Below, piece by piece: positions 2,236 to 12,428 of a stretch of 37,255 nt of DNA. The translations under genes were made by a program, and so were the position numbers. The notes beneath the pieces are model-generated. The model did not search any database and was not told the origin of the DNA. It saw only the letters and a program-made list of their open reading frames with translations. Source of the stretch: a virus. Location of the stretch: the IMG/VR virus record IMGVR_UViG_3300045135_000166, positions 1 through 37,255 of that record; one strand, 5' to 3'. Position 1 is the first letter of the stretch, and the number at the start of each line of letters is the position of its first letter.

Positions 2236-3347
2236 AGGACTAACCACCTTGAGCCAGTTGGGATTGTAACCGTAACGCCAGAAGCGATATCAACCGGGCC
2301 TGCCGTCATAGCGTTCTTGCTTGCTGTAATTGTATAGCTTGTAGTAACAGTCTGGTCGTTTTCCCAGAAGATCTGGTCAGTGTTACCGCCTGTCGCACCA
2401 CCGCCACCACCGATAGCACCCCACGCAGAACCGTCATAGCCTTCAAAGCTGTTGTCGGTTGTATTGAATCGTAGGTAACCTGCTGATGGACTAACGTCCT
2501 GTTCTGCTGATGTACCTGTAGGAATGATTGCAGAACCAGTGTCCGATGTTTTCTGTACAGCGTTAACACTTGGGTCAACATCCTGCCATGCAGAGCCTGT
2601 CCAGACAAACATGTTGTTAGAGGTACTGTTGAAGTACAGAGCACCAGTAATAAGTGCATCACCGTCGTTGTCTAGTGTAGGTGCAGATGACTTAGCACCT
2701 AAGTAACGGTCGTCAAAGCTGTCATAAGCCGCTTCTGCGTTTGTAGCCGATGTAGAGGCCGCTGAAGCACTGTTAGCCGCATTGGTTGCTGACGTAGCCG
2801 CTGTAGTGGCTGATGAAGCCGCCGCTGTAGCCGATGCTGATGCGTTTGATTCAGATGATGCGGCGGCACTTGCTGATGCAGAAGCCGCTGAGGCTGATGT
2901 CGATGCCGCAGAGGCTGAAGTACTTGCAGAGGTTGCTGAGTTGCCTGCATTGGTCTCTGATGTAGCGGCATTGGTTGCCGATGTAGCCGCATTAGTTGCT
3001 GATGTAGCCGCTGATGTTGCGCTAGTGCTTGCCGATGTTGCTGATGTTGATGCTGAGGTTGCGCTAGAAGCCGCTGACGTTGCTGAAGTGCCTGCATTTG
3101 TCTCTGCTGTCTCTGCACCTGCTTGAGCCGTTTCTGCGGCAGTCTGAGCAGTCTGAGCGGCGTTCTTGTAAGACTCTACGAGTGATTCGGAGCCTGCGGC
3201 GGCTGTAGCTGAGGTAGCGGCGGAAGTAGCTGAAGAGGCGGCGGCGTCTTTATAGCCTTCAGCTTCTTGAGTGAGTTCGGTAATGAGGTTAATTGTGATA
3301 TCAGAGTTCGCATCACCTGCACCACCGGGGCCACGATAGATTGCCAT
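2232..3347 (-). CDS. Long tail fibre with Ala/Ser/Thr repeat shaft
   Basis: This 371-aa fibre starts MAIYRGPGGAGDANSDITIN, an N terminus typical of marine podovirus tail fibres and probably the tail-docking part. Residues 35-205 are almost entirely Ala, Ser, Thr and Asn in short repeats such as SATSAS, which should form a trimeric coiled shaft. After DDRYLGAKSSAP come two related modules (GALYFNSTSNNMFVWTGSAW and AGYLRFNTTDNSFEGYDGSAW), a Gly-rich hinge and a beta-rich end. It follows the capsid gene after a hairpin terminator and opens the fibre cassette. Fibre identity is strong; the receptor is unknown. Confidence 0.85.
   Translation of the reverse strand: MAIYRGPGGAGDANSDITINLITELTQEAEGYKDAAASSATSAATSATAAAGSESLVESYKNAAQTAQTAAETAQAGAETAETNAGTSATSAASSATSASTSATSASTSATSAATSATNAATSATNAATSETNAGNSATSASTSASAASTSASAASASASAAASSESNASASATAAASSATTAATSATNAANSASAASTSATNAEAAYDSFDDRYLGAKSSAPTLDNDGDALITGALYFNSTSNNMFVWTGSAWQDVDPSVNAVQKTSDTGSAIIPTGTSAEQDVSPSAGYLRFNTTDNSFEGYDGSAWGAIGGGGGATGGNTDQIFWENDQTVTTSYTITASKNAMTAGPVDIASGVTVTIPTGSRWLVL
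2733..3245 (-). repeat. Degenerate tandem repeats encoding the fibre shaft
   Basis: The DNA reads as runs of near-identical short units (on the + strand, gatgtagccg and gctgatg variants) encoding the Ala/Ser/Thr/Asn shaft. Open frames on the opposite strand and in the shifted frame, rich in Ala-Asp-Val and Gln-His respectively, are by-products of this repeat. Confidence 0.85.
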
Positions 3348-10324: not shown

Positions 10325-10483
10325 GGGGCCCCCGGGGGGTGCACGAGTTACCCACAGGTTATCCACAGGTTTACCCACAGGGTGATCGAGTTATCCACAG
10401 GCAATCCACAGGATGCTTAAGTTATCCACAGGTTACACACAGGTGGACCGAGAGTTATCCACAGAGTTACCCACAGGGGCCCC
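10325..10483. repeat. GGGGCCCC palindromes bracketing the DnaA boxes
   Basis: The 8-bp palindrome GGGGCCCC occurs at 10325-10332 (followed by a second GC palindrome) and again at 10476-10483. The pair frames all nine same-strand DnaA-like boxes. They may mark domain borders or form hairpins. Confidence 0.5.
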
Positions 10484-10535
10484 ACAAGGGTGTCTAATTT
10501 CCGCATGGGTGTTGACTTTGGGGGATTGTGGATAA
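10348..10535. other. Putative replication origin: array of ten DnaA-like boxes
   Basis: Nine boxes face the + direction, starting at 10348, 10359, 10371, 10391, 10402, 10422, 10433, 10455 and 10467; a tenth at 10527-10535 is inverted. Five match TTATCCACA exactly (10359, 10391, 10422, 10455 and the inverted copy). The others are TTACCCACA (10348, 10371, 10467), CAATCCACA (10402) and TTACACACA (10433). Start-to-start distances are 11, 12, 20, 11, 20, 11, 22 and 12 bases, so boxes fall on about the same helix face. DnaA recognises TTATNCACA in bacteria. A role in replication, transcription control or DnaA titration is inferred. Confidence 0.75.
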
Positions 10536-10585: not shown

Positions 10586-10636
10586 GCGACACTTGAGCGA
10601 CACTTGAGCGACACTTGAGCGACACTTGAGCGACAC
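10586..10636 (+). repeat. 11-bp iterons (GCGACACTTGA)n
   Basis: Four exact tandem copies of GCGACACTTGA start at 10586, 10597, 10608 and 10619, with a partial fifth ending at 10636. They end 15 bases before the -35 of the early promoter. Their 11-bp period is close to a helical turn and to the DnaA-box spacing, so they could be an initiator or regulator binding array. Confidence 0.9.
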
Positions 10637-10651
10637 AATTGCATTTAATAG

Positions 10652-10679
10652 TTGACATCCAGAATACAGGCCTTATTAT
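10652..10679 (+). promoter_or_regulatory. Early promoter (sigma70)
   Basis: TTGACA (10652-10657), 16-base spacer, TATTAT (10674-10679). It would start transcription near 10686 and read the entire rightward early unit. The first real gene begins at 10740; an ATG at 10686 is too close to the -10 to be used. Confidence 0.8.
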
Positions 10680-11316: not shown

Positions 11317-11568
11317 ATGAGCACCATGACACAAGCACAAATCGCCAAGGCCACCAAGGACCATTTGGATTCACAAGGCCATTGCAAGGACCTAAGCGCT
11401 AAGCAGGTTTGGCGTATCGGTTATATGTATGCGGACGTGGTATCAAAATATCACGGGCCATGCACTAGGGCACAATTCGAGGGCCTACACTTTGATTGTC
11501 TGTCCGAGGCCGTCGAAGAGTTTGAGAACGAGCGGGAGCGCTATTGGGCGTCACGTCAAAATTGGTAA
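11317..11568 (+). CDS. Early protein of unknown function, 83 aa
   Basis: This 83-aa helical protein (MSTMTQAQIAKATKDHLDSQG ... VWRIGYMYADVVSKYHG ... EAVEEFENERERYW) begins within the second copy of the 19-base leader. It contains three cysteines without a clear metal motif. Its TAA stop (11566-11568) lies in the 5' strand of stem I of the hammerhead ribozyme, so ribosomes finishing this gene would cover or disturb the ribozyme. The function is unknown. Confidence 0.7.
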   Translation: MSTMTQAQIAKATKDHLDSQGHCKDLSAKQVWRIGYMYADVVSKYHGPCTRAQFEGLHFDCLSEAVEEFENERERYWASRQNW

Positions 11569-11633
11569 CCCCACTGATGAGGCCCTTGCACGAGGCCGAA
11601 ACGTCGGTATACAATCCGGCGTCTGGGATGCAA
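11562..11633 (+). ncRNA. Type I hammerhead ribozyme
   Basis: The core is complete: CUGAUGA at 11574-11580, GAAA at 11598-11601 and the GUC cleavage triplet at 11621-11623. Stem II pairs GGCC (11581-11584) with GGCC (11594-11597) around a 9-base loop. Stem III pairs 11601-11607 with 11616-11622 (seven pairs, one G-U) around an 8-base loop. Stem I is the open stem: CCCA (11570-11573) with UGGG (11624-11627), then an internal loop, then UUG (11562-11564) with CAA (11631-11633). Open stem I makes it type I. Cleavage is expected between 11623 and 11624, 28 bases before the next start codon. It lies in an intergenic gap of 83 bases. Confidence 0.93.
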
Positions 11634-11651
11634 CACAAAAAGGAGTCACCC

Positions 11652-12428
11652 ATGAGAACACTAGGCACAATCCGAGTAGCAAAACCACGCGCACCAAAGG
11701 CGCCGAAAGGTTTTGTCTTTTATAACGGTCCGTCGGTCCTCGACGGCCAACCGATTGTCGTCATCGGTACACTTGAGACGAGCAACGCTAAAACCGGCGA
11801 TATGGTACAGGTTTGGATACTACGCGAGGACGTGAATCCAGTACAGGCGACAAAGACCGGCGCCGATGCTTCGGTGTGTGGTTCGTGCCCGCATCGTTGG
11901 CACACTGGCGGCGCTTGCTACGTTAACGTCGGCCACGCGCCTAGGGCCGTGCATGAGTCATATACTAAGGGCCTGTATCCGGTTTACGATTGCGGCGAGC
12001 ATGAGCGCTTCTTGCGTCATCGTAAAATACGCCTAGGCGCCTATGGCGACCCTGCGGCGGCACCATACGAGCTCATGAGTTATTTAGCAGGCGTCGGTAT
12101 CGGTCATACAGGTTACACGCACCAAGCACGCCACAAAAACTTTGACGAGCGGTTTTTAAGTATCTGTATGGTATCGGCGGATTCACCTAAGCAGGCCGAA
12201 CACTGGCACGCCAAAGGCGCACGCACGTTTCGAGTAGCAATGGCAGGCGACGGGCTCTTCGATAATGAAATCGAGTGCCTATCGGATTCTATGGGCATGA
12301 CGTGCCTTGAGTGCGGCTTGTGCGACGGTAACTCACGCGACGATAAAAATATCGTTATAGCCGTGCACGGGGCTCGACACAAGCGATTTAAAACCGCTAC
12401 AATCATCCCTACAGTCTCAATTGCTTAA
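11652..12428 (+). CDS. Conserved cysteine-rich phage protein, 258 aa
   Basis: The product starts at the ATG at 11652 behind AAGGAG; a longer upstream frame crosses the ribozyme and is rejected. It has two cysteine groups: C76-x2-C79 ... C89 in ASVCGSCPHR..GACYVN, and C218-x2-C221-x2-C224 in MTCLECGLCDGN, plus C114, C172 and C209. A central RLGAYGDPAAAP and TGYTHQ segment is typical of a family I recognise from phages and plasmids without known function. The cysteines suggest a bound metal or Fe-S cluster. Its mRNA is probably released by the upstream hammerhead ribozyme. GC-rich codon use differs from the replication genes. Confidence 0.8.
   Translation: MRTLGTIRVAKPRAPKAPKGFVFYNGPSVLDGQPIVVIGTLETSNAKTGDMVQVWILREDVNPVQATKTGADASVCGSCPHRWHTGGACYVNVGHAPRAVHESYTKGLYPVYDCGEHERFLRHRKIRLGAYGDPAAAPYELMSYLAGVGIGHTGYTHQARHKNFDERFLSICMVSADSPKQAEHWHAKGARTFRVAMAGDGLFDNEIECLSDSMGMTCLECGLCDGNSRDDKNIVIAVHGARHKRFKTATIIPTVSIA

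Follow-up and report, generated by a model that had tools for sequence, protein, structure and literature searches.

The window analysed here, 37,255 nucleotides from IMG/VR virus record IMGVR_UViG_3300045135_000166, contains a series of neighbouring rightward genes that includes those for a single-stranded DNA-binding protein, a primase-helicase and a DNA polymerase. On the + strand of this region, an open reading frame (ORF) of 83 amino acids (11317-11568), for which no relatives were found by search, is followed by a gene of 258 amino acids (11652-12428) that matches PHROG 2554, a family with no function assigned in PHROG. The product of this downstream gene had no convincing match among solved structures. 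Its start codon (ATG, 11652-11654) is preceded by a ribosome-binding-like sequence, the two together reading AAAAGGAG (11638-11654). A candidate sigma-70-like promoter for the rightward early operon, identified by its consensus match (11 of 12 positions), lies at 10652-10679, and no terminator-like sites were found on the + strand between 9900 and 14400. Given this promoter-like sequence and the lack of terminator-like sites over that interval, the description of the region as an early operon is reasonable. Further upstream, a cluster of TTATCCACA boxes resembling DnaA boxes (10348-10535) is followed by tandem gcgacacttga repeats (approximately 10586-10635), and the two together, located between divergent promoters, form a likely replication origin.

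At the junction of the 83-amino-acid ORF and the PHROG 2554 gene, the + strand holds a complete type I hammerhead ribozyme (11562-11633), with its core and three stems. The core comprises CUGAUGA (11574-11580), GAA (11598-11600) followed by an A (11601) that pairs with U 11622, and the cleavage triplet GUC (11621-11623), in agreement with the type I pattern of CUGANGA, GAAA and NUH. The ends of the RNA enter through the open stem I, and stems II and III are closed by loops. The inner part of stem I is formed by four base pairs between CCCA (11570-11573) and UGGG (11624-11627). Stem-loop II, GGCC-CUUGCACGA-GGCC (11581-11597), pairs 11581-11584 with 11594-11597 over four base pairs and has a loop of nine nucleotides (11585-11593). 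In stem-loop III (11601-11622), seven base pairs between ACGUCGG (11601-11607) and CCGGCGU (11616-11622) enclose the eight-nucleotide loop UAUACAAU. The first-pass annotation had described this core together with the 4-bp stem II and the 7-bp stem III, and all of them are present at the positions it gave. It had also placed the cut after 11623, 28 nucleotides ahead of the downstream gene, and the positions agree: based on the GUC of the core, cleavage is predicted to follow C17 (11623), between 11623 and 11624, which would leave 11624-11651 ahead of the ATG. The ribosome-binding-like sequence and the ATG of the downstream gene both lie beyond the ribozyme. The element thus has the placement of an mRNA-processing phage hammerhead, being intergenic and on the sense strand, with the UAA stop codon of the upstream ORF ending 5 nt before the core and the predicted cut 28 nt before the start codon at 11652.

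The earlier reading of stem I holds only in part. Stem I is indeed open and contains an internal loop, but its outer pairs, UUG (11562-11564) with CAA (11631-11633), compete with a likely pseudoknot that the first-pass annotation overlooked. The sequence UUGCA in loop II (11586-11590) is complementary to UGCAA within the internal loop of stem I (11629-11633), which would allow five base pairs, and, judged by this complementarity, the window element has the tertiary contact between loop II and stem I. Similar complementarity is seen across the class. In a set of 42 larger-looped phage hammerheads, a mean of 3.50 complementary pairs can form between loop II and the internal loop of stem I, compared to 2.63 when the partners are re-dealt and a maximum of 3.14 in 1000 shuffles. 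The putative pseudoknot of the window element is likely of the type that Perreault et al. call common (PMC3088659).

When second-order Markov sequences with the composition of the window were scanned for the structure on both strands, one relaxed match and no strict match were found in 10,789 window-equivalents. In addition, an independent covariance model, trained on 50 hammerheads that share one fixed geometry and come from other viral contigs, with the window and its relatives left out, matches 11558-11641 at 35.5 bits (E = 2.7e-7), and the runner-up position in the window reaches 10.7 bits. No further hammerheads were found in the window by the strict scan, by this covariance model or by Rfam at a loose E-value. 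At its gathering thresholds, Rfam did not match the window element, and RF00163 had no match across the whole record. A local Rfam alignment of the element gave 21.0 bits for RAGATH-1 and 20.4 bits for Hammerhead_3, below every gathering score, and the alignment to Hammerhead_3 (RF00008, type III) was rejected, as its strand order is rotated and does not represent the real fold. At the gathering threshold, Rfam likewise matched no hammerhead in a further 33 loci, of which 16 contain clear phage hammerheads. Since comparable phage hammerheads are missed as well, the failure of Rfam to match was not counted against the window element. For the covariance test proposed in the first-pass annotation, taking the lack of a hit as grounds for discarding the element would be misleading if the search were confined to Rfam. 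As the phage hammerheads tried here fall short of the Rfam gathering thresholds, standard annotation overlooks elements of this kind. Elsewhere in the window, a sub-threshold Rfam match to isrG (2720-2947; 35 bits against a threshold of 100) lies opposite an alanine/serine-rich repetitive coding region and is probably a low-complexity artefact.

A search of viral contigs with the downstream protein returned 22 loci. In two of these (L006, with 67% protein identity, and L007, with 65%), a hammerhead is found directly before the same gene, and the gene upstream of it seems to be unrelated to that of the window, as far as comparison of the sequences by eye allows. In a third locus, L003, a hammerhead is located elsewhere in the same region. 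All 15 base pairs compared among the window, L003, L006 and L007 are standard in all four, and 10 of the 15 have changed on both sides. Compensatory changes, which the first-pass annotation had proposed to look for in stems II and III of related phages, are thus present in all three stems, including pairs 3 and 4 of stem I and pairs 3-7 of stem III. Among 50 phage elements, 100% of the cells are paired, although this set was chosen for pairing and only the variety of its pairs is informative. The ribozyme before the PHROG 2554 gene is absent in L001 (the closest relative, at 88%) and in L002, L003, L004 and L005, and is therefore dispensable at this site; as L001, L002, L004 and L005 lack it before the gene, its presence is patchy. 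In L008 (3960-4000), the sequence before the PHROG 2554 gene runs from tataaccca directly into gaagctaacactggagg, as would be left by a clean excision of the core of a hammerhead from between its flanks.

Similar elements are widespread among viruses. At least 120 stretches of viral contigs match a core-based pattern that left most of stems I and III unconstrained, the sites being picked mainly for their core, and among the matches listed, stems I and III are present as well at 126 of 132 sites. Pooled with the other loci, these amount to at least 185 distinct elements. In 134 of 180 elements among the matches listed, an ATG follows the predicted cut at a distance of 15-45 nt, as opposed to 7.8% of random positions. 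The distances peak at 20-30 nt, and single values may be off because the ORF calls are simple and ATG-based. A second, narrower scan found the same spacing in 37 of 50. Again among the matches listed, the upstream stop codon is most often positioned at or within the core or ends 4-6 nt ahead of it. On both measures, the window element belongs to the modal class. When 84,980 bacterial and archaeal genomes were scanned, only 12 places were found, in comparison to at least 120 in viral contigs, and the class is therefore mainly viral. Furthermore, one 44-kb phage contig (IMGVR_UViG_3300031999_000054; L158 and L176; first 7.4 kb) carries 14 hammerheads on one strand, many of them 24-38 nt before an ATG and near one per gene boundary.

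Elements of this kind also occur in cultured phages, namely Caulobacter phage S2B, Pelagibacter phage Jormungand, Flavobacterium phage elemoB and Salisaeta icosahedral phage 1. Phage S2B, cultured on C. vibrioides CB15, encodes a PHROG 2554 homologue (41% identity), and its hammerhead closely resembles that of the window in core and stem-loop II, with a predicted cut 29 nt before gp061c. Its score under the covariance model is weak (16.7 bits) because stem III is irregular. The same operon of S2B also holds a type III hammerhead (L199, 643-700; 46.6 bits, E 1.5e-7) that ends at the start codon of gp065c and has a ribosome-binding-like AAGGAGG within stem-loop II. In another hammerhead-like element of S2B (L199, approximately 3140-3195), CUGACGA is separated from stem II by one additional base. 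In phage elemoB, a sub-threshold type III hammerhead (L202, 687-743; 36.3 bits) and a type I element share a strand and are approximately 1.8 kb apart. Salisaeta icosahedral phage 1, whose record shows no tailed-phage taxonomy, has a fully paired type I hammerhead in the gap between ORF 17 and ORF 18 (L201, 2501-2548). In phage Jormungand (L200, 322-4213), the hammerhead at 2509 is preceded by ardA genes and followed by a marR-like gene and an integrase, and genes of these kinds are likewise mentioned as neighbours of the prophage hammerheads of A. tumefaciens (PMC3088659).

The claim that a type I hammerhead separates two genes of the early operon is upheld by the null model, the covariance model, the conservation before the same gene and the scan for promoters and terminators. 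As the same element type occupies the same position in more than 100 other viral contigs, its probable effect is to divide a long phage transcript into separate gene messages. Processing of the early polycistronic RNA is the most likely role of the window element; specifically, an active type I hammerhead with a pseudoknot probably splits the rightward early transcript at 11623/11624 into separate mRNAs. The ribozyme would be made as part of this transcript and would fold after the upstream stop codon. Self-cleavage would then leave the upstream message with a structured 3' end bearing a 2',3'-cyclic phosphate, and the PHROG 2554 message would begin at a 5'-OH, with the ribosome binding site retained in its 28-nt leader, such that the resulting mRNAs could differ in decay and translation. 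RNase E prefers a 5' monophosphate, which a 5'-OH end is not, and in a proteobacterial host the downstream message may therefore gain stability; the reverse may apply where the host has RNase J. The possibility that cutting unmasks the ribosome binding site was considered and rejected, as a simple model gives about equal accessibility before and after the cut (0.57 vs 0.58). With the fixed spacing of these elements and their presence in cultured phages, the processing hypothesis is directly testable.

Other explanations differ in how well they account for these observations. Chance resemblance, for which the failure to reach the Rfam gathering threshold could be cited, is contradicted by the null model, the covariance model and the conserved position, and is exceedingly improbable. 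The element could instead be a decayed or inactive hammerhead that cuts too slowly to matter, an explanation that draws on its folding energetics. Thermodynamically, its fold is unremarkable (z = -0.72), and the hammerhead fold without the outer stem I pairs is predicted at -20.4 kcal/mol against a minimum of -22.0 kcal/mol. When long flanks are included in the prediction, stems I and II are not favoured in the ensemble; failure of this test is also frequent among other phage hammerheads, with the window at the weak end. Folding energy neither favours nor rules out activity, and the minimum free energy was uninformative as a test. Decay would also fit the patchy presence and the apparent excised remnant in L008, but all core bases of the window element are intact, all stems are paired and the 5-bp pseudoknot complementarity is present, and this explanation is very unlikely.

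Two further proposals connect cutting to translation. In one, the hammerhead is mainly a control element, in which cutting awaits the end of upstream translation and then sets the stability of both messages. The terminating ribosome would cover stem I and the core, making cutting translation-dependent, consistent with a stop codon 4-6 nt before the core, or in it, at most loci (5 nt in the window). However, compact phage genomes alone would put such an element right after a stop codon, and part of the pattern is forced because CUGAUGA itself contains UGA, leaving a principal role in control unlikely. The other proposal is that hammerheads serve as general punctuation of phage genes, with the order stop codon, ribozyme, leader of 20-30 nt and start codon and no more than about one element per boundary. 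Here too, cutting would be coupled to completed upstream translation, since the terminating ribosome has a footprint that overlaps with stem I. This generalisation is tentative and can be considered possible but doubtful.

The role of hammerheads in phages has been a standing question since their discovery there. In the early region of phage T7, RNase III sites between early genes turn polycistronic RNA into smaller mRNAs, a purpose comparable to that proposed here, with catalysis by a protein in T7 and, as predicted, by RNA in the window. The core and three-way junction of the window element are shared with RAGATH-1 (RF03152), Hammerhead_1 (RF00163) and Hammerhead_3 (RF00008), and its alignment to RF03152 is weak and partial. 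Perreault et al. (2011) described hammerhead clusters flanking prophage genes, of which three tandem sets cleave in vitro and the A. tumefaciens set also in E. coli, and it was proposed that prophage hammerheads split long transcripts into operon-length or gene-length mRNAs (PMC3088659). The window element resembles these type I hammerheads in core, layout, pseudoknot, intergenic place and proposed role, and comes from another phage lineage. Its kind and proposed role have thus been known since 2011, going by the open-access literature, in which later surveys may be missed. A spacing of 20-30 nt to the start codon and abutment to the stop codon, measured here, were not found stated in the parts of PMC3088659 consulted; of the features described, it is this strict spacing and the overlap with the stop codon upstream that have been explored less. 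The hammerheads of haloviruses HF1 and HF2 (HHphage) provide a close parallel, as they too lie a short distance before a phage gene start. In the haloviruses, the element is 13 nt before the start codon of an early gene and a transcript end matches it, and in HF2 the transcript 5' end maps within 3 nt of the hammerhead site (PMC3088659). These archaeal virus hammerheads carry a core variant, whereas the core of the window element is canonical.
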